Shown here: one piece after another, positions 13,460-27,219 of the stretch
How the letters are laid out: each line of letters begins with the position of its first letter
Numbering within the stretch: position 1 is the stretch's first letter
Assembly (NCBI GenBank): GCA_947259075.1
Contig: CAMYKQ010000041.1
Span: forward strand, 1 to 41,078
DNA: 41,078 nt
Reading direction: 5' to 3'
Source: an uncultured Gammaproteobacteria bacterium
Lineage (GTDB): Bacteria > Pseudomonadota > Gammaproteobacteria > DRLM01
Notes under the pieces: model-generated
The model's input: the letters and a program-made list of their open reading frames with translations, nothing else
Database searches by the model: none
Told to the model about the DNA's origin: nothing
Position numbers and translations under genes: made by a program

Positions 13460-15382
13460 ATGATACAGGTACGCGGTCTCACCAAGGTATTCCCCGGCGG
13501 CACAAAGGCCGTGGACGGTCTGGATTTGGAGGTCAGTGACGGGGAAATCCTCGGCCTGCTCGGCCCCAATGGCGCGGGCAAAACCACCACCATCCGCGCC
13601 CTCTCCACTTTATGCGGCTTCGACGAGGGCGAGGTGAAGGTGGCGGGCTTCGATGTCGACGCCGAACCCCACCGGGTGCGCGAGAGCATCGGCGTGGTGG
13701 CGCAGAACACGGGCATCGATTACTTCCTCACTGGCCGCGAAAATCTGGAGCTGCAAGGGCAGATGTACCGCATGAACAAGGCGGACATCCGCGCCCGGGT
13801 CACCGAACTGGCGCGCTATTTCGAGCTGGAAGACAGCCTCGACCGCACCGTGACCACCTACTCCGGCGGCATGCGCCGCAAGCTCGACATCGCCACCGCC
13901 CTCATCCACCGGCCCAAACTGGTGTTTCTCGACGAACCCACCCTGGGCCTGGACATCAAAAGCCGCAAGATCCTGTGGAACTACATCACCAAGCTCAATA
14001 AAGAAATGGGCCTGACCATCCTCCTCACCACCCATTACCTGGAAGAGGCGGACCAACTGGCCGACCGCGTCGCCATTATCAATGCAGGCAAGATCCGGGT
14101 GGTGGGCACGCCCGACGAACTCAAGCGCGGCATCGCCGGCGACGCCATGACCCTCAGCGTCGAGAAGCAGGACTGGACCACGCAGCAATTCACCCAGACT
14201 CTGAAGCAGAGCAGCCTCATCAAGGATTCCCTGTGGCAGGGCAATAAGCTGCACCTCTACGTGGACAACGGCGCCGAGAGCGTGCCCAAGATCACCGCCC
14301 TCGCCAGCGAAAAACAAGTGCGCATCCTCACCCTGTCGCTGTCGCGACCCAGCCTCGACGACGTCTTCCTCAAGTACACCGGCACCAGCCTGGAAGGCGA
14401 TACCGAGGAGAGCGGCGACGAGTGGTGGAAGCAATGGGCCGGCAAGGGCGGCGGCGGCAAATGGCAGAAGCAATGGGAGCAATCCCAGGCGGAAAACCAG
14501 GACGACGCGGCCGCGGGCGAAGACGCGCAGCAATGGACCGAGGAAGAGACCGCGCAGTGGCAGAACAAACAGTGGTCGCCGGAGGAGATGGAGTCCTGGC
14601 AAAAACAAAAAGCGGTCGAAAACGCCACCGCCAATCCGCAGACCTCCGCTGCCAGCAGCCAGACCTGGAGCGCCGAAGAGACCGCGCAATGGCAGAGCCA
14701 GCAATGGTCACCCGAGGAGATGGACGAGTGGCGACGCCAGCAGCATGCCGCCAGCGTCGCTCAGCAGGCGCCCGCGAGCGGGGCGGCGGCCTGGAGCGAG
14801 GAAGAGACCTCGCAATGGTTGAAGAAACAATGGACACCCGAGGAAATGGATCAATGGCAGCGGCAGAGAGAGGCTGCACAGTCCGGCGGCGACGTGTCCG
14901 CGAAACAATGGAGCCAGGATGAAGCCGAGCAGTGGCAAAACCGCCAATGGACGCCAGAAGAGATGGACGAATGGCGGCGCCAGCAGCATGCCGCCAGTTT
15001 GGCCAAACAAACGGCGGGGCAGTGGACCGAGGAAGAGACCGCGCAATGGCTGAAGAAACAATGGACGCCGGAACAGATGGACCAGTGGCGCCGGCAGCGC
15101 GAAGCCGCCCAATCCGCCGCCTCGACGGCGGACGGAGGGGAACAGCAATGGACCGCGGAAGAGACCGCGCAATGGGAAAGCAAACAGTGGTCCCCTGCGG
15201 AAATGGACCAGTGGCAGAAACAACGCGAGGCCGCCAGCGCGGCCTCTAAGCCACAAGGCGGGCAAAGCGCCGCCCAATGGAGCGCCGAGGAAACCGCGCA
15301 GTGGCAGAACAAACAATGGTCCGAGGAAGAAATGGTCGAGTGGCAAAAACAACAAGCCGAGACGGCTAAAAAAGGCAAGTAA
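13460..15382 (+). CDS. ABC exporter ATPase (DrrA-like) with Trp/Gln-rich tandem-repeat tail
   Basis: The first 310 residues are an ordinary drug/lipid-export ATPase: Walker A GPNGAGKT (35-42), Q-loop near 82, signature YSGGM (134-138), Walker B LVFLDE (154-159), H-loop His192 and a DrrA-type C-terminal domain. The following 320 residues are extraordinary. A Trp-rich lead-in (DEWWKQW, from 320) precedes seven repeats of about 40 residues from 357 to the end. Each repeat contains two similar half-units, QW[ST]xEETAQW and QW[ST]PEEMDQW, with Trp eight residues apart. These are joined by A/Q/S-rich linkers. The tail is presumably cytoplasmic. The permease follows 59 bp downstream. Usual DrrA proteins end near residue 310-330, so the tail doubles the length. 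Its function is unknown; it could oligomerise or tether partners. Confidence 0.88.
   Translation: MIQVRGLTKVFPGGTKAVDGLDLEVSDGEILGLLGPNGAGKTTTIRALSTLCGFDEGEVKVAGFDVDAEPHRVRESIGVVAQNTGIDYFLTGRENLELQGQMYRMNKADIRARVTELARYFELEDSLDRTVTTYSGGMRRKLDIATALIHRPKLVFLDEPTLGLDIKSRKILWNYITKLNKEMGLTILLTTHYLEEADQLADRVAIINAGKIRVVGTPDELKRGIAGDAMTLSVEKQDWTTQQFTQTLKQSSLIKDSLWQGNKLHLYVDNGAESVPKITALASEKQVRILTLSLSRPSLDDVFLKYTGTSLEGDTEESGDEWWKQWAGKGGGGKWQKQWEQSQAENQDDAAAGEDAQQWTEEETAQWQNKQWSPEEMESWQKQKAVENATANPQTSAASSQTWSAEETAQWQSQQWSPEEMDEWRRQQHAASVAQQAPASGAAAWSEEETSQWLKKQWTPEEMDQWQRQREAAQSGGDVSAKQWSQDEAEQWQNRQWTPEEMDEWRRQQHAASLAKQTAGQWTEEETAQWLKKQWTPEQMDQWRRQREAAQSAASTADGGEQQWTAEETAQWESKQWSPAEMDQWQKQREAASAASKPQGGQSAAQWSAEETAQWQNKQWSEEEMVEWQKQQAETAKKGK
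14528..15379 (+). repeat. Seven in-frame repeats encoding Trp/Gln-rich units
   Basis: Units start at about residues 357, 401, 443, 482, 521, 560 and 603 of the ATPase. Each encodes x-W-[ST]-x-E-E, a QW pair and [ST]-P-E-E-M-x-x-W with Lys/Arg-Gln following; Trp codons are all TGG. DNA copies have diverged in the linkers but keep blocks such as gaagagaccgcgcaatgg nearly identical. This indicates repeated duplication rather than random low complexity. Confidence 0.9.
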
Positions 15383-15441
15383 GCTACCGCCGCCTAAGCC
15401 GCGATTCACTCACCCATACCCATACGTTAGAGGTAAAACCC

Positions 15442-16203
15442 ATGCTCGCCGATACCTGGCACCTGTTCAACAAATACATGAAGGTCACCATCCGCATGCC
15501 GATGTGGACCCTCTTCACCTTGGTGCAACCCTTGATCTGGCTGATTATCTTTGGCCAATTGTTCAAGAACATCACCCAACTGCCCGGCTTCCCCACCGAC
15601 AGCTATATGGATTTCTTCGTGCCCGGCGTACTCATCATGACCGTGCTGTTCGGCTCCTCATGGAGCGGGGTCAGCCTGCTGCGCGAGATACAATCGGGTA
15701 CGGTGGACAAGATGCTGGTCTCGCCGGTGTCGCGCATCGCCATCGTCCTCAGCCGGGTGCTGCACTCCACCGCGCAAGTGGTGGTGCAGGTCTTGATCAT
15801 GCTCGCGGTGGCCTGGGCCATGGGTGCGAAGCTCAATCTGCATCCCGTCTATTTCGGCCTCAGCATGCTGGTGGTGGTATTGCTGGGCCTGTGCTTCGCC
15901 GCGATATCCAATGGCTTCGCCATCGCCCTGCAACGCGAAGAGCCACTGGTCATCATCGGCAACCTCATGACCCTGCCCTTGATGTTCTTCTCCACAGCGC
16001 TGGTGCCCGAAAACTTCATGCCGGGCTGGATCAAATATGTTTCGCTGATCAACCCCATTAACTACTCGGTGGAAGCCGTGCGCGCGGTGCTGGTGGGCAC
16101 GCCGGATTTAGCCGCATTCGGCACGGCGTTACTGATACTCACTGGCTTCACCGTCGCCGCAATGTGGTGGGCGGTGTCGGCCTTCAATACCCTGCGCGAT
16201 TAA
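15442..16203 (+). CDS. ABC-2 type exporter permease (DrrB-like)
   Basis: Inner-membrane partner of the preceding ATPase. The 253-residue product has about six hydrophobic segments, including TLFTLVQPLIWLIIF (residues 24-38), the VPGVLIMTVLFGSSWSG segment, VVVQVLIMLAVAWAMG, MLVVVLLGLCFAAI and a C-terminal ALLILTGFTVAAMWWAV. The central LLREIQSGTVDKMLVSPVSR is the ABC-2 cytoplasmic signature and the NPINYSVEAVRAV segment is also typical. AGAGG sits eight bases before the start. Substrate is unknown. DrrAB-type pairs export hydrophobic drugs, lipids or polyketides. A strong terminator follows, so the operon is only these two genes. Confidence 0.9.
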   Translation: MLADTWHLFNKYMKVTIRMPMWTLFTLVQPLIWLIIFGQLFKNITQLPGFPTDSYMDFFVPGVLIMTVLFGSSWSGVSLLREIQSGTVDKMLVSPVSRIAIVLSRVLHSTAQVVVQVLIMLAVAWAMGAKLNLHPVYFGLSMLVVVLLGLCFAAISNGFAIALQREEPLVIIGNLMTLPLMFFSTALVPENFMPGWIKYVSLINPINYSVEAVRAVLVGTPDLAAFGTALLILTGFTVAAMWWAVSAFNTLRD

Positions 16204-16277: not shown

Positions 16278-16889
16278 TTAAGCATTCAGGCCAGCCGCGC
16301 ATTCAGCGCAAATCTTTTTCCCGCTTTGCTCAAGCAACAAATCATGTTTAGCGTACTCACCACACAGCGCGCACGCCGCGGAGCGGTACTTGGAAAATTT
16401 GGGCGGCAGCGGCATATCCACCCATGACAGCTTGAACAGTTCGTCCTCGGGCAAGGAAAGAATCGTGTTCACGCCGAGAGTCAAGGCATCCCGCAGCGCT
16501 TGTTTTTTCTCCAGCGTCCCCGTGACCGGATCATTCGCCTCTTGGCGCTGGCGGCGCAGTGCCTCGTGGTCAAAATCATCCCAATAATGACAATAGGCTC
16601 GCGCCGCCTTACCACTGACCGTATTCTGCAGCACGAAACTGGACTTGCCGCTATTGGTGTAATAAAGATTACGCTTGCCGAGGGTGCAGCCGGCGAGCTG
16701 CTGCAGGGCGTCGATGGCGCAGGTGGGCGCGCCCGCATAGGCCACCACGTGCTTCGGGTTACACAGCTCATCACCCATCTCGCGCGACAGCGCCTTCACC
16801 ACGCGATAACCCAAGGCAATATCGAGGCAGTAGCAGCCGTGAAAAGCCACTAAGGCATCGAAATCCGCACGATCAATCGTTTCCATCAT
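16278..16889 (-). CDS. FmdE-like protein with C-terminal zinc ribbon
   Basis: The 203-residue product resembles the FmdE family, named for a gene in methanogen molybdenum formylmethanofuran dehydrogenase operons and of unclear biochemical role. The N-terminal FHGCYCLDIALGYRVVKAL (about 16-34) corresponds to the FHGHxCPGxxLGYR motif but with the central His replaced by Cys and the Pro-Gly lost. The AYAGAPTCAIDALQQLAGCTLGKRNL segment is strongly family-like. The C-terminus carries a CALC...CAEC zinc ribbon. GAGG nine bases before ATG 16889 supports this start. It begins 23 bases after the TPR gene and is probably the last gene of the export operon. The altered N-terminal motif may change its metal site. 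Confidence 0.78.
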   Translation of the reverse strand: MMETIDRADFDALVAFHGCYCLDIALGYRVVKALSREMGDELCNPKHVVAYAGAPTCAIDALQQLAGCTLGKRNLYYTNSGKSSFVLQNTVSGKAARAYCHYWDDFDHEALRRQRQEANDPVTGTLEKKQALRDALTLGVNTILSLPEDELFKLSWVDMPLPPKFSKYRSAACALCGEYAKHDLLLEQSGKKICAECAAGLNA

Positions 16890-16912
16890 TAAGCGCGGCC
16901 TCACGCATTCAA

Positions 16913-19657
16913 TCAAAAATTGACCGCCACGCCCGCCCCTAAGGTGTGTTTCTGATAATCACCCAAGGAGGGACTTTGCACCCCGACGGCCACATCTTCG
17001 GACGTGAAGATAAACCCGGTGGGTAAATTCGATGAATTCATCTGGAAAGAGTAATTAGCGAATAGGCGCAAATTTTCACTCAGGAAAAGATTGAGACCCA
17101 GCGAAAGGAAATTCGCGCTATTAACGCGCGTCTCCAGAAAACGGGTTGATGAATCGGGGTGCTTGAATTGCGAATACACGTAATTGTAACCGCCGTTCAT
17201 ACTCAATCCAGGTCGCAGCATTTTTGACAACTGCAAGGAGAGGCTATGGCTGGTATAGGCAAAATCATTGCCGATAGGCAAGGTATTTGAGTTGTCGGTA
17301 TAAGCATAATTGCCCGTCCATGACCAACCATCCGCCAATGACTGATTAATCAAAGCACCCATGGAATAACTGTTCGAATTAAACAAGGGAGAGGAATCGG
17401 ATTTAAATTGACGCGCGTTCGCACTGATCTGCAAGGCGCTGGGCACCTCCTTCATTCCCGACGCCAGAAACGGTAGAAGCGGCCTCATCTTGATCCGCTT
17501 GATGGCATCCGCGCTCAAGGTCGAGCTGTCATTAACAAGCGCCTCGTTCAACAAGCCCTCCATGCGGTTCATGGTGAAAGTAGCGGACAAATCATATCCA
17601 CGCCACGTCCCCGTGACAAAAGGCGCCAATTCCGTTACCACGAAATCATACTGTCCATTGTGATAAATATTATACGCGGGGTTATAACTCACGCCCCAAG
17701 TCAACTTCTTCCCTCGCAACTTGCGGCGGTAAGTGATACCGCCGCTCAAATCCGAGCGGAATTCCTCAACGGGATGATTGGCGCTCAAATTACTATTGTT
17801 ATCCCAATTCATCCCATAGGAAACTCTGTAAGAAAAACCATCGATACGCTGTTGCACATTATCCAAACGCTTCTTGGCCGCTTCCGCCATTCCCCCGGCC
17901 CCCGAACGCATCACCGCGCGATATTCAGGGATCGCGTCCTCTTCCCGGCCCAATTGCTCATAGAGCATCGCCAGGTTCAAACGCGCGCCAATATGTGATG
18001 GCACCACACGAAGCACCTCCTTGTATTCCGTTACGGCACTCTCTAAATCTTCCTCGCGGGAATAAATCAGGCCCAAAAAGAAATGGGATACAAAATTATT
18101 CGGATCGCTCTTCACGATGGTCTGAAACTGCAATTTCGCTTGAGCTTGCCTGCCTTCATTATAGTTTTTCTTGGCGATAGCCAAGATTATTTGGCCTTGT
18201 ATCTTCTCCCGAGTCGCCTCATCGGCGGCCAAGTCCAGAGCACGCGCAAAGGCCGGCACTGCCTTGGCATAATCCCCCATCTCATCGTACAACTCAGCCA
18301 GCGTATGCTGCACTCTGCCGTGAGTCGGGTCTATCCTCATCACGTTTTCGAAGGCGTCTATCGCCTCTTTAATGCGGCGCTGGTTCAGATATATAACCGC
18401 AAGATCCAGCCAGGCGTCTCGATTATCCGGCTCTTGCGCCAAAATAGCCTTATACCCGTCGATGCGTTCTTCCAGAATCCTCGCCTGCACCTCTTTACCT
18501 TGCTCGGACTTGTATAGCTCACCAAGAAACTGCGCGGCCTGACGTGCTTGCGGACCACCCCGCCCTTTAATCAACACCTCTTCAAGCTCACGCGCGGCCT
18601 GGATCAACTCGCCCTCCTCGAACAAGAGCGCGCCGTAGCGTAAACGCGCATCCAGATCATTGGGCTTCTCATCGAGCAAGGCGCGCAATATTACTTCCGC
18701 CTCTTTCTGCTTACCTATGCCGCGATAGGCCGTCGCCAAATTCAAACGCGCTAACGGATTATCGGGCGACATTGAAACCGCCTCCTCGAATAAGCTAGCC
18801 GCATCCTGCAATTGCCCATTTTCCAAGGCCCTCAAACCATGGATCATTGACAACTTGAATTGCGCCTGACGCGCGGGCGCCGAACCCATGGGCATCAACT
18901 CGAGCACACGTTGATAATGCTCTTCAGCACGCGCGATATCGCCTTTACGGTCATATATATCGGCCAAATAACTATGCGCGACCGGATTATCGGGCTGGAG
19001 CTTAATTGCATGCTCAAAATGCGCCTGAGCCTCATCGAACCGATTAAGAAATAAATTCGACAGCCCGGCGTCAATCAGCACAGGCACGTCATCCGGGTAA
19101 TCCGCCAGCACGGACATAAAAATCTGCAAGGCCCGTTCGAGATCACCTTGCTCACCGTATTTTTTGCCGACCAATATCCGGCCCCGCTTACTCGCCTCTT
19201 GCCCCTCTGGGGTATTAGGCGCGATACCTACCACCCCCCGGTATTCGGTTATGGCCTGATCGACCAGCCGCAGACTTTCGTAGGCCTGCGCCAACACCAT
19301 GCGTAGCCTGTAATTCTCGGGCACCAATTGCGCGCTGCGCGCCAAGTATTCCAGTCCGCGCTCCGCATTATTCATGCGCAGATAAAGAGACCCGGCATTA
19401 TAAAGCGCCTCGGGATTTGATGGCTCGAGAATGAGCACTTGTTCGAAGAGTTCAAGCGCGCGCTCAAACTCGTTTTGCTGTATAGCGCGCTTCCCCTCAG
19501 CCATCAAACCGGAGACGCTGGACCGCTGAACGGGAGGTGTTTGTTCTTGGGCGCTCGCGGGCAAACAGAAGATCAATGCACAGATAAAAACCATGACGGG
19601 CATGATTGCCTTCATGCCCGCTCGCGCAATCGAAATATGTGTCAGTTGAAATTGCAT
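16913..19657 (-). CDS. Large TPR protein with C-terminal outer-membrane beta-barrel
   Basis: Product of 914 residues. A signal peptide ends near ASAQ (about residue 36). From about residue 45 to 610 there are many tandem tetratricopeptide repeats with the usual A-x-x-x-Y/F and P spacing (for example YNAGSLYLRMNNAERGLEYL at the start of the second). The last 290 residues alternate polar and aromatic residues in strands and end in NF, the usual C-terminal Phe signal for outer-membrane assembly. This TPR-plus-barrel layout recalls exopolysaccharide export proteins such as BcsC/PelB, but sequence does not prove relationship. The start could instead be an ATG at 19615, giving a shorter signal peptide. 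Neither has a strong ribosome-binding site. It lies 17 bp after the barrel gene. Confidence 0.8.
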   Translation of the reverse strand: MQFQLTHISIARAGMKAIMPVMVFICALIFCLPASAQEQTPPVQRSSVSGLMAEGKRAIQQNEFERALELFEQVLILEPSNPEALYNAGSLYLRMNNAERGLEYLARSAQLVPENYRLRMVLAQAYESLRLVDQAITEYRGVVGIAPNTPEGQEASKRGRILVGKKYGEQGDLERALQIFMSVLADYPDDVPVLIDAGLSNLFLNRFDEAQAHFEHAIKLQPDNPVAHSYLADIYDRKGDIARAEEHYQRVLELMPMGSAPARQAQFKLSMIHGLRALENGQLQDAASLFEEAVSMSPDNPLARLNLATAYRGIGKQKEAEVILRALLDEKPNDLDARLRYGALLFEEGELIQAARELEEVLIKGRGGPQARQAAQFLGELYKSEQGKEVQARILEERIDGYKAILAQEPDNRDAWLDLAVIYLNQRRIKEAIDAFENVMRIDPTHGRVQHTLAELYDEMGDYAKAVPAFARALDLAADEATREKIQGQIILAIAKKNYNEGRQAQAKLQFQTIVKSDPNNFVSHFFLGLIYSREEDLESAVTEYKEVLRVVPSHIGARLNLAMLYEQLGREEDAIPEYRAVMRSGAGGMAEAAKKRLDNVQQRIDGFSYRVSYGMNWDNNSNLSANHPVEEFRSDLSGGITYRRKLRGKKLTWGVSYNPAYNIYHNGQYDFVVTELAPFVTGTWRGYDLSATFTMNRMEGLLNEALVNDSSTLSADAIKRIKMRPLLPFLASGMKEVPSALQISANARQFKSDSSPLFNSNSYSMGALINQSLADGWSWTGNYAYTDNSNTLPIGNDFAYTSHSLSLQLSKMLRPGLSMNGGYNYVYSQFKHPDSSTRFLETRVNSANFLSLGLNLFLSENLRLFANYSFQMNSSNLPTGFIFTSEDVAVGVQSPSLGDYQKHTLGAGVAVNF

Positions 19658-19674
19658 TAGCCTGACATATCGCT

Positions 19675-20565
19675 TTAATAGTAGACCGTGACTTTGAAAA
19701 GCGCTTTCCAGCCATCAAAGCTCAGCCTGAGTTCACGGTATTCCTCACCGGACTCAAGCTTATATTGCATACTGCCATTAACGCCCGGAACGATCGGCAC
19801 CTGCAAAAATAAATTATCGGTGTCGCGAAAATCCGTGTTCAAGCGGCCATCACCCAGAGTCATTTCTTTCATCCCGAGGGTATAACCGGCCTCCGCCCCC
19901 AGCGACAACCAATCATTAATAAACCATTCGGCGCCCCCCGCCCCCTGCAACAACAGCAGACCCGTAGCCTGCGCCTGAACCACCACGGACTTACGGAAGC
20001 TTCGCGGCGGCCCGCTCAAGAACAACAAGGAAAAGTCCTCTCGATAATCGATATCGAACACTTCATGGGCGGACATCCGCAAGTAAAGATTATATTTTTT
20101 AGGTTTACGCACGGCGTTGTAACGCCAACCCAAATAGAATTCGTTGTAACTCATATCGCCTTTACGCTGCGATACCGCGGATTCGAACGCGCCTTGCACG
20201 GGGAAAAGGCCTTGCGCCGTGGCGAATGTCGTGGCTTCCCAGCTTCCGCCGCCGATCAACAATGCGTGCTTTTCATTTATGTTCCAAATAAATTCCAAAC
20301 CCACGAGCGCGCCTGGCTCCAGTTCCGGCATGGGATTGCGGTAAACAAAACTCGTGGGATTATTGAAACCAAACTCATCAATGATGTCGGCGGTACCGCT
20401 ATAGGGCGAACGAAAATGACCGCTATTGAGGTTTTCCAAGTTCGGACCATGCATGCCGACATAGGGCGATATGCCCCACACGCGCCCGGCATCCTCGGCA
20501 TACGCACTGATGGGCAGCAACGACATCACCAGCAGAAACAGGAAACGACGCGCGGCATTACGCAT
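19675..20565 (-). CDS. Outer-membrane beta-barrel protein, family unknown
   Basis: Product of 296 residues with a signal peptide (ending ISAYA, about residue 23). The mature part is rich in aromatic and Gly residues in alternating strand patterns (GISPYVGMHGPNL, FYLGWRYNAV, LGAEAGYTLGM) and ends in YY. This resembles an 8-10-strand barrel. Its ATG overlaps the stop codon of the RND gene by eight bases (ATGCGTAA), so translation is coupled and the product is probably needed in fixed ratio with the pump. I know no specific family. It might be the outer-membrane channel of the pump or an acceptor for its substrate. Confidence 0.7.
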   Translation of the reverse strand: MRNAARRFLFLLVMSLLPISAYAEDAGRVWGISPYVGMHGPNLENLNSGHFRSPYSGTADIIDEFGFNNPTSFVYRNPMPELEPGALVGLEFIWNINEKHALLIGGGSWEATTFATAQGLFPVQGAFESAVSQRKGDMSYNEFYLGWRYNAVRKPKKYNLYLRMSAHEVFDIDYREDFSLLFLSGPPRSFRKSVVVQAQATGLLLLQGAGGAEWFINDWLSLGAEAGYTLGMKEMTLGDGRLNTDFRDTDNLFLQVPIVPGVNGSMQYKLESGEEYRELRLSFDGWKALFKVTVYY

Positions 20566-23065
20566 GAGCCACGCCCTCTGCCCGTTTCGCTCTGACTGGG
20601 CGCCGGAGATAAAACAGCAGAGGCAGCACTATCAAGGCCACGATACAGCTGATGAGCATATAGGCAACCACGAAGTAACCCAATTTCACATGGGGCGGAA
20701 ATTGCGACCAAAATAAGACGGCGAAACCTATCACCACCACCACGGCGTTAAATACGATGGTCTTGCCCACCGTGCGCATGGTGACTTGCGCCGCCAGCAC
20801 CGCATCACCGCTACGCTGATATTCATCTTGGTAACGGAAGATATAGTGAATCGCGTAATCAACACCAACACCGATGGCCACGCCCGCGGCCAGCGCCGTC
20901 GACACATCCAAGGGTATGCCCGCGAACCCGGCGAATCCGGCAATAAACAAAGTGGACAGCGTCACTGGCACAACCGTAAAGAACCCGATTACCAGTGAAC
21001 GGAATAGCAGGGTGGCAATCAGCAAAATACCTAGCTTCGAAAGCACGATCGCGATCTTTTGGCTATCGATCAGCAGGTCGGCCCAAATATAGGAGTTATT
21101 GGCCGAACCCGCGTAATTCACCTGCACATCAAACCCGGAAAACACTTCATTAGCACGTTGTTTGATGCCGGTAATAATCCTATTCAGGTCCTGGGTGTGA
21201 TCCGTTTTGATAATGAAGGTCACCAAGGCCGTCTTGTAATCGTAATCGATGATTTCATCCAGCTGCTGAGGGCGGCCGGAGACGGAAAATAGAAATAGAT
21301 ACTCACCGATCTGCGCCTCGGTATCAGGAATGGTGTTGTACGCTTTGTCTCCGACATGCAAGGTCATATTCATATTCTTAATGTAATCCACAACTGAGCG
21401 TGAGCTGCCCACGTAGGGCAGCGACTCACCATAGGATTGCAATTCTTCGACGCGCTGCAATAACTGAGGAGACTTGAATATATCTTTTTGCCCACCCTCG
21501 ATGACCACATTTAAAAAAATGGCGCCATCGAAACGCTCATTGAGCATATTGTTTGCGTGAACCAACTCGCTGTCTTGCCGGAAATCATTCATCCAGCTTG
21601 AATCCACATAGAGCTTTGACACACCCCAAGCGGCGACAAGCACCATCACCAGCAACACGGCGGAAACACCATGCCGGGCCCGGTGCAGAGAAGCCGCCAA
21701 TTGCACTAAATATTTGCTCAAGCGATTTTGTTCGTTATGCACACGCATCGCGCGGCGCTTGGCCAAATAAGCCCCCACTTTGGGCTTCATGACGGTCAGG
21801 ACCGCGGGGATGAAGGTGACCGTAAGCAACCAGCTCACGACAATACCAATCACGGTGAATACGCCGAATATCACGAAGGGGGGCATCTCGGCGAAAAACA
21901 GCGCAAGAAACCCTACCGCGGTGGTCACCGTGGTGGTCAATAGAGGCGCCCCCAATTTGCCCATAACACTGGCGATGATATCGGTACTGGGCTGATGCGC
22001 GTCTTCCAGCACGTGATCGTAGTAGTGGCTCATGAGGTGCACCGAATCACCGATACTCACCGCCACCAATATCACCGGCAACATCGTCGAGATGGTATAT
22101 AAAGGCACATCGAACAGCACCATCAATCCCATGGTCCAAATAATGGCAGCCCCCATCACGAACATCGGCAATACGACGCCGCGCCCGGTGCGGAAAAGAA
22201 AGAATAAGGTGATCGCCAGTGCGGCCATGAGGAGAGGGATCATGACCTTCATGTCATCCATGGCATGGGAGCCGGATGTCACTTCAATCACCGGCCTTCC
22301 CGCCAGATAAAAGGTATCGCCATTGAGCTCGTAGACCGGCTCGGCTTCGGTTGCTTTGCCGTCCGCTTTCCCCTGCTGCGCCCACTGTCCTTGCTGCGGC
22401 CATGCCTGCCCTTGACCACCACTCTGCTGTTGCCAGTCACCCTGTTGCTGCCAACCGCCTTGCCAGCCGCCGGATGCGCCGCCTTTTTCCTGGGCCAAGA
22501 TACCTTGGATTTGCCAGTAGGTCTGGTAGCGGTTAGCCTGCCCCTCTTTTAAACGGGCGCGGATCATGGCCGCATTGCCATCACGTGACACCAAATTGCC
22601 AACGAATAAATCACTATTGGCGAACACCGCCTCTTTGAGACGCGCCACTGCCGCATCATCTTCAGGCACGCTGGGCATGAGCATGACGCTGCCGATGCTG
22701 GATTCATCACCCACAAACATCGTTGCGGTAGAGAGGGAGGCGACATCGATGGGACGCGTGGCGATGACGCCGGGCAAGGCCGCGACCTTTTCGGTTATAC
22801 GCGCTATCCGCGCCAGCGTAGTGGGATTAAAGACACCATGTTCATCATTCACAATACCGATAATGACCGCATCTTTTACTCCGAATAGCTCATCCACCTT
22901 TTCATCATAAAGAATCGCCGCATGCCCCTTGGGCAGGTAAACCCGCGCATCGGTCTCCCATCGCAAGCCGGGCAACTGAAGTGCAAGATAGACGGTAATA
23001 CCTAAAACCAATGCGATGATCAGTTTCGGGTAACGGATAACGGCGGTAGTAATCGGCTTTAACAT
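20558..23065 (-). CDS. RND/MMPL-family exporter with Trp/Gln-rich periplasmic insert
   Basis: Inner-membrane proton-driven exporter of the MMPL/HpnN type (single long chain). The 835-residue product begins MLKPITTAVIRYPKL. It has TM1 near 16-30, a first periplasmic domain, a TM2-6 bundle from about 280 (TLFFLF, VLPMFVMGAAIIW) with GDSVHLMSHYYD near 370, a second periplasmic domain, and a second bundle containing GVGVDYAIHYIFRYQ near 750. These two acidic motifs are the proton-relay sites. Residues about 195-232 in the first periplasmic domain are a Gly/Gln/Trp-rich insert with five Trp. ATG 23065 is chosen because the frame upstream is Arg/Cys-rich and unlike a membrane leader. It overlaps the next gene. 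Substrates of this family are usually lipids, hopanoids or polyenes. Confidence 0.88.
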   Translation of the reverse strand: MLKPITTAVIRYPKLIIALVLGITVYLALQLPGLRWETDARVYLPKGHAAILYDEKVDELFGVKDAVIIGIVNDEHGVFNPTTLARIARITEKVAALPGVIATRPIDVASLSTATMFVGDESSIGSVMLMPSVPEDDAAVARLKEAVFANSDLFVGNLVSRDGNAAMIRARLKEGQANRYQTYWQIQGILAQEKGGASGGWQGGWQQQGDWQQQSGGQGQAWPQQGQWAQQGKADGKATEAEPVYELNGDTFYLAGRPVIEVTSGSHAMDDMKVMIPLLMAALAITLFFLFRTGRGVVLPMFVMGAAIIWTMGLMVLFDVPLYTISTMLPVILVAVSIGDSVHLMSHYYDHVLEDAHQPSTDIIASVMGKLGAPLLTTTVTTAVGFLALFFAEMPPFVIFGVFTVIGIVVSWLLTVTFIPAVLTVMKPKVGAYLAKRRAMRVHNEQNRLSKYLVQLAASLHRARHGVSAVLLVMVLVAAWGVSKLYVDSSWMNDFRQDSELVHANNMLNERFDGAIFLNVVIEGGQKDIFKSPQLLQRVEELQSYGESLPYVGSSRSVVDYIKNMNMTLHVGDKAYNTIPDTEAQIGEYLFLFSVSGRPQQLDEIIDYDYKTALVTFIIKTDHTQDLNRIITGIKQRANEVFSGFDVQVNYAGSANNSYIWADLLIDSQKIAIVLSKLGILLIATLLFRSLVIGFFTVVPVTLSTLFIAGFAGFAGIPLDVSTALAAGVAIGVGVDYAIHYIFRYQDEYQRSGDAVLAAQVTMRTVGKTIVFNAVVVVIGFAVLFWSQFPPHVKLGYFVVAYMLISCIVALIVLPLLFYLRRPVRAKRAEGVAHA
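22370..22483 (-). repeat. Trp/Gln-rich low-complexity coding segment in the RND gene
   Basis: Encodes residues about 195-232 with GGWQGGWQQQ-like near-repeats, then further W-Q-Q and W-A-Q pairs. The composition recalls the ATPase tail at 14528-15379 but lacks its Glu-rich helical pattern. Confidence 0.75.
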
Positions 23066-23167
23066 GGCGGCATGCTTACCTGTCGGACACCCTGTCCGTC
23101 TTCCAACTCTGTGGCACAAGCCCACACTAGGGCCACGCACCTTGGAAGCACGTTATCTTGGGTGATA

Positions 23168-24685
23168 TTAAAATGCATATTTAAACTCTACAAAAGCCCG
23201 GTCATTATCGTGGAAGTTCCCAATGAACTGGGCCCGCTGTTCGCGCACGACCACACCCTCGGTAGCGGTGGTGCTGGAAGCAACGCCAAACTGGGATTTC
23301 TTACCAAAGAAAATATCCAGCCCCGTGCTAATTTGAAAACGGTCGGTGAGGCGGAACGTCCATTTGGGTTTGACGTAGAGCTCATCAAGATTAATTAAAT
23401 AAATACCCAGAAGCTGGAATACCATGGAGCTCTGGGGGAACTCTTTTCTAAGGAATATATTTAAGCTGGTATCGAATTCATCCTGAATGATCGCATCGTC
23501 ATAATCCATGATGATCCACTGCACCACGCTGGGTGAGATATCCAGACCCTGCCAGTTATAGTCCAAACCCAGTCCCCAACGGATGTGATCACGCTTGAAT
23601 TCACCGTTGCCATCTAAAAATCCATCGCTATTTTTGTCCACATCGGCTACGGCAAAATATTTGTCCGTCACGTACGCCATTTCGCCTTTGAGAATCAATG
23701 AACTCAACTGCTTGATGAAACTAGTGCCATACATGGACATTCGCGTGTAGGTAGGAGAAAAATCAGGCGCATCCGCTTCATCAATGCGCACGCGGCGAAA
23801 AATCACTGGAAAATCGTCCCAGGTGTAAAAGTAACTGAATGTAAGCTCGGTATCCCAATGATTGGTGCTCAGCTTCATTCCCACCTCGGCATTCTTGTAA
23901 TCGAATGACTCTGGAAAACGCGTGCCAGGCACCTCTTGCAATAATTCCCACTCCGAACCCGGCGGTGCCGGCTTGTGGAAACGGATATCGGGTATCCATA
24001 AAAACTGATAGTTGGCGTTTTCTCTATAATAATCGAGCTTGGCCATCCAGAGCGGGATGCGGTAATCCAGCAAGTCAGGGAGAATCAGCTCACGGAAATC
24101 TATGGGGTTAATCTCATCAGTGATACGCACCCCCTCCAGCACACCCCATACCACAAACTGCTTACCAAGACGGATGTCCATATCACCCAAAAACATGTCC
24201 ATATACAATTCGCGAATCTCGGCGACGGGTGTGTCTTTTTCGCGCGGCAGATTTACGATAAACGCCAAAGGTTCATCTTCGTTGCGCTCAAGACGAGCGG
24301 CTATGGTGTCGTAATCAAATAAATCATACGCCAAATCATAATAGGCCCAGCCAGAAAAATTAAACTTCAGGCGTGAACTATAGGGGTATTTGGCATTTAG
24401 GTAGGCTATATTGCGAATCTTAGTAATCGAGCGCGGCTCCCGATAGCGATAGGCGGTCTCGTTCTTTAAATAGCCACTCAATTGAACATCAGACAAGAAA
24501 GAGGCGGACGTTTTATCGGTTACATCAGCGCCCATACCTTCCCGGAGGACAGCTTCGGCGCCATTTTTTTCATCCGCGCCCAGGGCGACGCCCACCCCCA
24601 AAACACTAAAAAAGCCCAATAGAAGAATGACCGCGGCAAACTTCTGCGGCAGTTCAACACCCCACTTTATACTGACTCCTTGCAT
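23168..24685 (-). CDS. DUF1302-type outer-membrane porin
   Basis: The 505-residue product has an N-terminal signal peptide (hydrophobic LLLGFFSVLGVGVALGA) and a mature part matching the DUF1302 barrel pattern. The barrel begins LSGYLKNETAYRYREP, followed by IRELYMDMFLGDMDIRLGKQFVVWGV, the DEINPIDFRELI segment and many aromatic strands, ending FVEFKYAF with terminal Phe. DUF1302 proteins commonly sit beside LolA-like and MMPL genes, as here. ATG 24685 overlaps the upstream regulator gene by 19 bases, so translation is probably coupled. AAGGAG inside the overlap is too close to serve this ATG but close to the upstream stop. The frame is open further upstream, but that part is antisense-like and lacks a leader. 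Confidence 0.82.
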   Translation of the reverse strand: MQGVSIKWGVELPQKFAAVILLLGFFSVLGVGVALGADEKNGAEAVLREGMGADVTDKTSASFLSDVQLSGYLKNETAYRYREPRSITKIRNIAYLNAKYPYSSRLKFNFSGWAYYDLAYDLFDYDTIAARLERNEDEPLAFIVNLPREKDTPVAEIRELYMDMFLGDMDIRLGKQFVVWGVLEGVRITDEINPIDFRELILPDLLDYRIPLWMAKLDYYRENANYQFLWIPDIRFHKPAPPGSEWELLQEVPGTRFPESFDYKNAEVGMKLSTNHWDTELTFSYFYTWDDFPVIFRRVRIDEADAPDFSPTYTRMSMYGTSFIKQLSSLILKGEMAYVTDKYFAVADVDKNSDGFLDGNGEFKRDHIRWGLGLDYNWQGLDISPSVVQWIIMDYDDAIIQDEFDTSLNIFLRKEFPQSSMVFQLLGIYLINLDELYVKPKWTFRLTDRFQISTGLDIFFGKKSQFGVASSTTATEGVVVREQRAQFIGNFHDNDRAFVEFKYAF

Positions 24686-25125
24686 AGATCGCACAATATA
24701 ATATGTTCCTCTCCCGGCGCCCCGACTCCCAGCGTCACTCTCGAACCGGCTTGCAGCTTCGCTCCACACGCAGCGCAATTAACTAACCGATTCAGCCTGA
24801 TATCCTCCCAACCAAGCACGCCAGGAAATTTAGGTGCGCCACCCAGGTTAAGCGCTTCAGCTCTCATATCGACACTTGGCTTGGATTGCCCAAGTGGAAG
24901 CGTACCGTCTTCACGGAACGCCTCTTCTAGTACATTGCGGATTAAAATGGAAACCGGAATACCAAGACGGTCTGCGCGTTCGATTACCTTGTTTTTGAGC
25001 TCTCTGGGCACCCGCGCGCCCAAATACTCTTCCTTTCTTTTCATCGCGATAGCATGGGCTTGATCCCTTGCCGCGGCGCCCTGTTGCGGCCCTGACAACC
25101 GTGACCGTCTACTCGATTGATACAT
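24667..25125 (-). CDS. Ribbon-helix-helix regulator with C-terminal zinc ribbon
   Basis: The 152-residue product has a basic N-terminal 30 residues and a likely ribbon-helix-helix domain (33-72: YLGARVPRELKNKVIERADR then a second helix ILIRNVLEEAF). A linker leads to a C-terminal CAAC (117-120)...CDLC (145-148) pair suitable for binding zinc. GAGGT five bases before ATG 25125 supports the start. It is the first gene after a 246-bp gap that contains a TTGACA and a palindrome, so it probably regulates itself and the export genes behind it. The RHH-plus-ribbon layout is unusual. Arc/CopG-type regulators normally lack a C-terminal metal site, which may act as a sensor. Confidence 0.72.
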   Translation of the reverse strand: MYQSSRRSRLSGPQQGAAARDQAHAIAMKRKEEYLGARVPRELKNKVIERADRLGIPVSILIRNVLEEAFREDGTLPLGQSKPSVDMRAEALNLGGAPKFPGVLGWEDIRLNRLVNCAACGAKLQAGSRVTLGVGAPGEEHIILCDLCKESV

Positions 25126-25371: not shown

Positions 25372-26190
25372 TTACTGACCAATCCTCAAGGCCCTCTCCG
25401 TAAACTCATCCTCGCTCAAACCCACATTGACCTGCACATCCGTCACCTGAAATATTGATGAATGGCCGGTTTGAACGTTACGCACGGTCACATCATCCCA
25501 AACCCAAGCCTTATTTGCGCGCTGCCATTTTATTATTTGCTGCTTGAACGGCTCCCCTTTTTTATCGAAATAATCCACTTGGCGCTTTACACAGCTATCC
25601 CAATCCTGCCCCTTAACGAACCAAGACACGGTTTTGCTGTACAAACTATTGGCCTTATTGATCGGCACATTTTCAACGGCATAAACTAGCTCGTCGCCAC
25701 GCGGCATTGATTGGATCAGCCGGTGCTGGTCAGCATCGAGGCTGCGCCCACTGATATCCGCATACGTAAGATCGGAGCCGAGGAAGCTGTCACCCGGATC
25801 ACGAATAGAGACCCGGCGGATCTTCTTCAGCACCGGCAGATAGATCCATTGATCCGCATTACGATCAGATGCCGCGGTGTAGGCCCAACGCATAAAACCA
25901 GCACCTTGCGCATCCGGCGGGAACTCGGTAAACAGCACCATCTTATCGGCAATGCCTTCCGCGCCATTGAAATCTTTCCAGAGACGGCGGTAGATATTTT
26001 TTTTCTCGTTGCCGTCTTTGTCACGCAAAATAATGGTCAAGCGAGAACGCTGGTCTTCTCCCGGATACTTGAAATTACAGCGCTCCATGATCTCCCGCCC
26101 CTCTTGCAAGGGATCGGCGGCAAAGGAGAGCGTCGGCACCACAAGCATGCAGGCGGCAAAACTCAAAACCACTCTAGGAAAGGAATACAA
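25372..26190 (-). CDS. Outer-membrane lipoprotein-sorting protein, LolA-like
   Basis: Periplasmic carrier with a LolA-like fold. The 272-residue product has a signal peptide (ending LSFAA) and family segments: MERCNFKYPGEDQRSRLTI, KDKDGNEKKNIYRR-like strand, FTEFPPDAQGAGFMRW, the ADQWIYLPVLKKIRRVS core and SFLGSDLTYADI. All are typical of the MMPL-associated LolA_like (PF17131-type) proteins. The start is TTG. An in-frame TAA lies 24 bases before it, AAGG eight bases before it, and the next Met would remove the signal peptide, so TTG is decided by sequence. It follows the methyltransferase by 18 bp. It likely ferries a lipid-like cargo between the RND pump and the outer-membrane proteins. Confidence 0.85.
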   Translation of the reverse strand: MYSFPRVVLSFAACMLVVPTLSFAADPLQEGREIMERCNFKYPGEDQRSRLTIILRDKDGNEKKNIYRRLWKDFNGAEGIADKMVLFTEFPPDAQGAGFMRWAYTAASDRNADQWIYLPVLKKIRRVSIRDPGDSFLGSDLTYADISGRSLDADQHRLIQSMPRGDELVYAVENVPINKANSLYSKTVSWFVKGQDWDSCVKRQVDYFDKKGEPFKQQIIKWQRANKAWVWDDVTVRNVQTGHSSIFQVTDVQVNVGLSEDEFTERALRIGQ

Positions 26191-26208: not shown

Positions 26209-27219
26209 TTAGGGCTTAGTACCTTGGATCAAGGTAAACGGGCTTGGTTCTGGCAAAGGCCTAAAACTCAAATCTTTGAACCCGATTTCTGCCGCCCAAT
26301 CCGCAACTTCTTTTGCGGAATAGGCCCGGCCGGCCGGAGTATGAATCAACTGGTTAATGCCAATCAACGCGGGCAATAGGGGACCGGACTTATCCGTATC
26401 CAAAAATTGTTCCTGGATCAAAATAACACCACCCGGCTCCATGGCATCATACGATTTTTGAATAATACCCTTGATGACATCCGGCCCTTCTTGGCTGATC
26501 ATCGAGGAAAGCAGCACGACGTCGTAGCCCGTCCCGAAATCATCCTCAAGGTAACTTCCCTCTTTCGTGCTCACCAAGGCCTCGGCATGAAAGTCTTTAA
26601 TGATGTCACGCGTGACGCGCAAGGTCTGCGGCAAATCCAGCACATCCGCATTAAGTCCCGGGTTGTTCTGCGACAATATAATGGAGAAGATACCCGGACC
26701 ACCGCCCACATCCAACAGTTTCTTATGCCCCTTCAGCGGCACCTCTTCGGCAAGCAAATGCGCCTGAGGAATACCACGATACAACATCCCCATGATGTAA
26801 GTCCGCGTCGCCTCCTCACCGTGATCATGCTGCTTTTCAACCACAGGCCGGCCGTGAACTACCGCATCACGAAGCTTCGACCAAGGGGAAACCCAGTCAG
26901 CAAACATCGAAACGATACCGCCCTGATAGCGCTGCCCCCCCTTGACCAAGAATGTCTGCGCGACTTGGCCATTACTAAATTTACCATCGTGTTTTTCTAA
27001 TAACCCCAAACCAACACACGCGATCAGAATAAGCTCCAAGCCACGCTCATCAGCAGCACATTTTTTCGCCAGCTCAGCCGCGGTGGCCGGGCCAGCTGCT
27101 AAGGCTGTAAAAATGTCCAAGCTATGCGCCACATGCAGGACGCTAGAATTCCAGTAGGCGGATGCGATTCGCATCACGGCCATCGGGTCAGCACTATTCC
27201 ACTGATTTTGCGCACTCAC
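26209..27219 (-). CDS. SAM-dependent O-methyltransferase (plant-type/CrtF-like)
   Basis: The 336-residue product has an N-terminal winged-helix dimerisation domain (MRIASAYWNSSVLHVAHSLDIFTAL, about residues 15-40) and a class I methyltransferase domain. Motif I is LLDVGGGPGIFSIIL (about 167-181), then DLPQTL, and later VLLSSMISQEGPD and the GGVILIQEQFLD strand. These are features of the methyltransferase_2 family (hydroxyneurosporene, acetylserotonin and flavonoid O-methyltransferases). In such enzymes a conserved His acts as base; here the equivalent region is MISQEGPD, where Gln/Glu replaces the usual HxW/HDW, so catalysis may differ. GTG start with GAGGGG nine bases upstream. First gene of the run with the LolA-like gene 18 bp downstream. 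Substrate unknown. Confidence 0.82.
   Translation of the reverse strand: MSAQNQWNSADPMAVMRIASAYWNSSVLHVAHSLDIFTALAAGPATAAELAKKCAADERGLELILIACVGLGLLEKHDGKFSNGQVAQTFLVKGGQRYQGGIVSMFADWVSPWSKLRDAVVHGRPVVEKQHDHGEEATRTYIMGMLYRGIPQAHLLAEEVPLKGHKKLLDVGGGPGIFSIILSQNNPGLNADVLDLPQTLRVTRDIIKDFHAEALVSTKEGSYLEDDFGTGYDVVLLSSMISQEGPDVIKGIIQKSYDAMEPGGVILIQEQFLDTDKSGPLLPALIGINQLIHTPAGRAYSAKEVADWAAEIGFKDLSFRPLPEPSPFTLIQGTKP

Follow-up and report, generated by a model that had tools for sequence, protein, structure and literature searches.

Why should the ATPase of an ABC exporter carry, in one and the same reading frame, a long tail rich in tryptophan, and which features of such a tail are kept in evolution? 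The gene that raises this question lies in a stretch of 41,078 nucleotides (the window) from an uncultured Gammaproteobacteria bacterium, where a single open frame on the + strand, with an ATG at 13460 and a stop at 15382, codes for 640 aa. Residues 1-308 (13460-14383, +) consist of an ABC_tran NBD and a DrrA1-3_C domain (Pfam) and harbor the Walker A GPNGAGKT, the signature YSGGM, the Walker B motif with its Glu, and H192; the catalytic motif residues are without variation across 16 orthologues. This core is a complete DrrA-type ABC ATPase by profile, with an NCBIfam TIGR01188 score of 332.5 bits over aa 13-308, above the cut-off of 312.45. A tail continuing in frame after a complete DrrA-like ATPase had been proposed from the letters of the DNA and their translation (hereafter the sequence-only reading), and this is confirmed: it measures 332 aa beyond the core, is rich in Trp, Gln and Glu, and ends in seven repeat units. 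Trp accounts for 10.0% of the tail and 1.0% of the core of this protein. The tail would be cytosolic, since it is without a signal peptide and is fused to the NBD. No second copy of it was found elsewhere in the genome. Antisense ORFs are present at 13610-14704 and 14708-15409, opposite the repeat codons.

The repeats start only at aa 358. Residues 309-357 include an acidic linker and a junction motif (DEWWKQWAGKGGGGKWQKQW), the latter overlooked by the sequence-only reading, which described the repeats correctly. The linker, TSLEGDTEESGDE (aa 309-321, 14384-14422, +), keeps its position and is Asp/Glu-rich in orthologues, and the junction motif, WWKQWAGKGGGGKWQKQW (aa 322-339, 14423-14476, +), is the most conserved segment of the tail. 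Seven tandem Trp units then occupy aa 358-640 (14531-15379, +), with starts at aa 358, 402, 444, 483, 521, 563 and 606 and lengths of 34-44 aa, in agreement with the seven terminal units of about 40 residues first reported; on the DNA they correspond to 14531-14662, 14663-14788, 14789-14905, 14906-15019, 15020-15145, 15146-15274 and 15275-15379 (all +). Each unit consists of two half-units W[ST]xEExxxW, and the Trp spacing is exactly 8-5-8 (W-8-W-5-W-8-W) in 7/7 units. The initial description of 14 half-units QW[ST]xEExxxW stands for their number, obtained with the relaxed pattern W[ST]x[EDQA][EDQ]xxxW, and for the distance of eight between Trp, whereas the strict W[ST]xEE occurs in 11/14 half-units (WSQDE, WTPEQ and WSPAE are each off by one residue) and a Q directly precedes the Trp in 12/14. 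The invariant positions in aligned unit pairs are W, E, W, Q, W, M, W and Q, and W[ST]P is present in six of the seven units.

The DNA of the units is far from uniform, with identities of 62-81% between them. Between units, pS reaches 0.79 (near saturation) against a pN of 0.19, and pS exceeds pN in 21/21 pairs; judged from these substitutions, the units are under purifying selection, being old duplicates kept by selection at the protein level rather than products of slippage or assembly error. An assembly error, which the sequence-only reading had raised against itself, is ruled out, as is recent slippage, by the divergence of the units at the DNA level, by Tandem Repeats Finder, which gives no report across the repeat region, and by the presence of tails in orthologous genomes. 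The comparison of repeat number among relatives that had been suggested finds the tail kept and the number of units variable, with seven here and two in the same-genus relative G002. This variability, together with total tail lengths of 99-332 aa among orthologues, would suit a non-adaptive expansion of low-complexity sequence, in which repeats arose from slippage and are tolerated. We hold this to be very improbable in view of the low pN relative to pS, of the invariant Trp, Glu, Met and Gln positions within units, and of the retention of Trp in every lineage despite its single codon and its easy loss by drift.

An orthologue is present in 24 of the 369 genomes of a class sample (an even draw), belonging to nine families, and the sole match at E 1e-90 in a phylum sample of 398 genomes is the window's own genome. 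The orthologues in genome collections share 52-80% identity over the matched part and come from Gammaproteobacteria metagenome assemblies (groundwater, marine and other); the alignment of more distant DrrA-type ATPases stops at about residue 310. All distinct orthologues examined (36/36) harbor WWxxWAGK at 12-15 residues past the core, after which come a stretch rich in Gly and another two Trp. Eight junction columns (W, W, W, A, G, K, W and W) are invariant in 22/22 representative orthologues, and the motif reads WWKQWAGK in this protein. The profile of the junction motif and the ATPase match the identical set of 24/369 genomes. Three weak matches of the motif in other proteins (E 0.009-0.02) were taken as chance. 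Beyond the junction, the tail extends over 65-299 residues that are unalignable between lineages. An invariant junction so close to the core, set against a distal tail variable in length and sequence, is what speaks for an intramolecular regulator, whereby ATPase activity would be set by the junction folding back onto the NBD dimer or onto the DrrA C-terminal domain, the rest being a fast-evolving spacer. This appears rather unlikely, as it leaves unexplained that the Trp density is kept over the whole of these further residues and that Phe, Tyr and Cys are excluded from them.

The composition of the tails is indeed peculiar. When the 36 orthologues are pooled, Trp makes up 9.2% of the tails vs 0.7% of the cores, with Phe and Tyr at 0.1% each, Cys at 0, and Leu, Ile and Val at about 1% each; compared with shuffles, Trp-Trp spacings of 5 and 8 are enriched and those of 2 and 4 depleted. 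Lineages are not alike in their type of repeat: W[ST]xEExxxW is shared by this protein and several others, L072 has NWQGNEWVxxDG, L068 has DWQNNEWNKxKDSPPDDWKKW (tail run DWQNNEWNK...DDWKKWASKAGYDV), and L005, L056 and L057 have NPAQTWTKEEMxxWW. Some orthologue tails are without Trp repeats, and the repeats of L068 and L072 are unrelated to W[ST]xEE. On the tree of the ATPase core, the half-unit label takes 4 changes, at least 3 of which are forced by well-supported branches. That the helical W[ST]xEE half-unit is the essential device of the tail is not supported, because it is lineage-specific and the tails of other orthologues lack Trp repeats or are built from unrelated ones. As far as these alignments indicate, the W[ST]xEE units are one lineage's elaboration, and the wider constraint is the junction motif plus a Trp-only aromatic composition; with junction and composition conserved and repeat types specific to lineages, the repeats are real, yet a local answer to this wider constraint.

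The AlphaFold2 model of the full protein, obtained with 16 sequences, has a mean pLDDT of 52 and a badly modelled core; it shows two helices per unit, with a pLDDT of up to about 80 in the last unit. Two units modelled alone reach a pLDDT of 63, with helices at 4-11, 17-33, 47-54 and 60-76. The two short helices per unit, predicted with moderate confidence, are weak evidence in line with the capping-box or N-cap reading of [ST]xEE that had been made from the sequence. A Foldseek search with this two-unit model, itself weak, gave no PDB match. Searched by itself, the tail has no match to any repeat or domain family of Pfam or NCBIfam, nor to a PDB sequence. In relaxed Pfam scans of unit pairs, the matches (DUF4266, GYF and TryThrA_C) were scattered and all well under the cut-off, and the single tail match in PHROGs, at 0.017, is to a family of unknown function. 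A kinship with SHOCT-like hairpins, considered for their common [ST]xEE-capped second helix, was rejected, no SHOCT match being obtained even at E 10, and a viral origin of the tail was likewise rejected, viral contigs being without any match. Plasmid records contain only DrrA-type relatives without the tail, at <60% identity. Finally, a literature search, incomplete in coverage, yielded no description of a comparable tail on an ABC ATPase, which agrees with the novelty first claimed for it, nor of any WWxxWAGK-type motif.

Tryptophan prefers membrane interfaces, and the Trp-dense WWKQWAGK adjoins the C-terminal domain of the NBD. Both points would suit a membrane-interface anchor, in which Trp side chains inserted in the inner leaflet would tether the ATPase to the membrane or link its motion to the permease. 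Such an anchor is nevertheless improbable: all orthologues examined have a tail of negative net charge (-3 to -29), the tails are poor in other hydrophobic residues, and the hydrophobic moments are low, at 0.03-0.18 for the tested repeat helices and 0.19-0.25 for the junction, which argues against amphipathic membrane binding by the repeats.

The gene directly downstream of the ATPase, in the window and in the loci examined, codes for a DrrB-like ABC-2 permease of 253 aa (15442-16203, +; Pfam ABC2_membrane, 9e-35), whose best NCBIfam match, TIGR01247 DrrB, is below cut-off (131 vs 223 bits). It is about 60-94% identical in orthologues, and the permeases of the orthologues inspected have no extension mirroring the tail of the ATPase. 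Convergent to this pair is a module of TPR, P6, MMPL and DUF1302 genes that also takes in a small ribbon-helix-helix-like (RHH-like) protein and, often, a LolA-like one; it is adjacent to the pair in most of 20 distant loci, and in the non-adjacent cases the TPR/P6/MMPL/DUF1302 block, whole or in part, is found elsewhere in the genome or on another contig. The first gene codes for a TPR protein of 914 aa (16913-19657, -; Pfam TPR and synteny). The second, P6, codes for 296 aa (19675-20565, -) with a signal-like N-terminal segment and the C-terminal end ...KVTVYY; it has no match in Pfam and NCBIfam and is probably an outer-membrane barrel. It is followed by an MMPL/HAE3-type RND transporter of 860 aa with an uncertain start (20558-23140, -; Pfam MMPL), whose best NCBIfam match, TIGR00921 HAE3, is below cut-off, and by a probable outer-membrane protein of the DUF1302 family (23168-24778, -; Pfam PF06980 and synteny), the true start of which probably lies downstream of 24778. 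In many loci the DUF1302 gene is preceded by that of a small RHH-like protein with a Cys-containing C-terminal part (24667-25125, -; CopG_antitoxin match weak and below cut-off), which is 40-56% conserved in place and possibly regulates the module. Moreover, a LolA-like/DUF1329 periplasmic protein (25372-26190, -; Pfam LolA_like, 2e-39) is in place in part of the loci. Two other genes were observed in this region: that of an FmdE-like protein (16278-16916, -), lying between the permease and TPR genes in part of the lineages only, and an O-methyltransferase gene (26209-27219, -) that adjoins the LolA-like gene and is also present, at 87% identity, in G004 (L090), a genome of the same family.

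A profile of P6 matches exactly 24/369 genomes, the very set that harbors the tailed ATPase, including genomes with P6 on another contig. Fisher's test gives a p of 3e-38 for this co-occurrence if genomes are independent, which they are not, and the pattern could come largely from shared ancestry after a single origin. On a TsaD tree, most deep branches of which are unsupported, the carrier/non-carrier label needs 6 changes at best. A second copy of P6 is present in G003, G004, G080, G207, G299 and G307. The same-genus genome G001 is without the ATPase, P6 and TsaD, in an assembly rated 96% complete. A loss in this genome was considered and withdrawn: as TsaD is missing as well, these absences are most likely missing sequence and not gene losses, and the region of the ATPase and P6 is probably absent from the assembly.

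The abundance of Trp in the tail also recalls that this is the usual sugar-stacking residue. The tail could therefore recognize the substrate, its Trp binding an exported glycan or lipid-linked head group before transport. Wzt would be the precedent for such a substrate sensor at the C-terminus of an NBD (PMC9445017). However, no carbohydrate-binding domain was detected in the tail (Pfam, NCBIfam) and no glycosyltransferase was recognized among the module proteins scanned. In addition, the tail sequence is unconserved next to a core ATPase and a permease that share about 60-80% identity, and because a specific binding site should be conserved, this counts against substrate recognition, which we consider unlikely.

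The explanation toward which we lean, tentatively, is that the ATPase drives an envelope export system from the inner membrane and that its tail acts as a multivalent, Trp-only arm to gather transporters or to capture a partner. Together with the permease, the ATPase would form an ABC exporter of the DrrA/DrrB type, and this exporter would be the motor, in the inner membrane, of a wider system that would comprise the TPR protein, P6, the HAE3-type MMPL pump, the DUF1302 outer-membrane protein and often the LolA-like carrier, and the cytosolic C-terminal tail would serve as the multivalent assembly arm. The invariant WWxxWAGK...W...W junction would dock at a specific site, which may belong to the transporter itself or to a cytosolic partner. 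The distal tail, Trp-only, net-negative and otherwise hydrophilic, would supply many weak binding points ('stickers') that may cluster transporters in the membrane or keep a substrate-supplying partner near; in this genus the stickers would be the seven two-helix units, with four Trp each. We infer the docking, the clustering and the link of the ABC exporter to the envelope module, and the latter might also be a mere syntenic neighbour without functional link to the exporter. A sticker-and-spacer region would be expected to keep its composition through changes of sequence and of repeat type. Oligomerisation, partner docking and phase separation, the three roles initially envisaged, would all fit conservation at the level of composition, and the evidence does not separate them. 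It is possible, if doubtful, that these proteins represent a new class of ABC exporter in which a Trp-only tail anchored by WWxxWAGK condenses or scaffolds the motor of a trans-envelope machine, the selected trait being sticker valence and not sequence, and lineages rebuilding the tail from different Trp repeats.

Disordered tails with a conserved make-up and an unconserved sequence are hard to study because they usually combine several kinds of sticker residue. In the present tails, Trp is practically the sole aromatic residue and is kept in at least nine bacterial families, on a transporter with measurable activity and location, so that the question of whether sticker number is what selection sees becomes directly testable. 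The strict partnership with P6 points, in addition, to an uncharacterised multi-part envelope export system.

Among known systems, the closest are the DrrA-type ATPases themselves (TIGR01188, DrrA1-3_C), which share the complete NBD and C-terminal domain and the ABC-2 permease gene directly downstream. They usually end soon after the C-terminal domain, a matter of usual length for the type and not part of the TIGR01188 profile, whereas the present protein goes on for another 332 aa, which contain the WWxxWAGK junction and the Trp repeats. The ATPase is thus of the known DrrA type and the tail is what is new, an earlier mention being possible. Wzt of O-antigen exporters is also an ABC ATPase with a functional C-terminal extension past the NBD, but there the extension is a folded carbohydrate-binding domain that binds O antigen (PMC9445017), whereas here it is a Trp-rich low-complexity sequence without a match to such a domain.

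For clustering, the comparison is with Rv1747 of Mycobacterium tuberculosis, an ABC transporter that clusters and has a cytosolic disordered linker (PMC9312465). Both are ABC exporters with a cytosolic disordered regulatory region, and the likeness is one of possible working, not of homology. Rv1747 has N-terminal FHA domains, a phosphorylation-dependent linker, and NBD and membrane domain in one polypeptide; the present system has no FHA match (Pfam), a C-terminal Trp tail, and an ATPase subunit separate from the permease. After Rv1747, it may be a second example in bacteria of a disordered arm that organises an ABC exporter. Short helical Trp motifs repeated along a chain are also known from PYCO1 of diatom pyrenoids, where the stickers are KWSP and their W-to-A replacement essentially eliminates co-condensation with Rubisco (PMC10288592); W[ST]P occurs here too. 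PYCO1 is an unrelated eukaryotic Rubisco linker that also uses Tyr stickers, absent here, and homology is not expected.

The neighbouring module, finally, resembles AmeABCD of Castellaniella defragrans, an efflux system tied to tolerance of monoterpenes (PMC6394551), in bringing together a DUF1302 protein, a DUF1329/LolA-type protein and an HAE3 RND pump; all three are found in the window, the pump with an HAE3 profile match below cut-off. No TPR protein, P6 or tailed ABC exporter figures in the description of AmeABCD, and no gene for an AmeC-like protein (COG4447) came up among the module proteins scanned here. This likeness suggests, by analogy, that the ABC exporter may hand a hydrophobic or amphiphilic molecule to the module.
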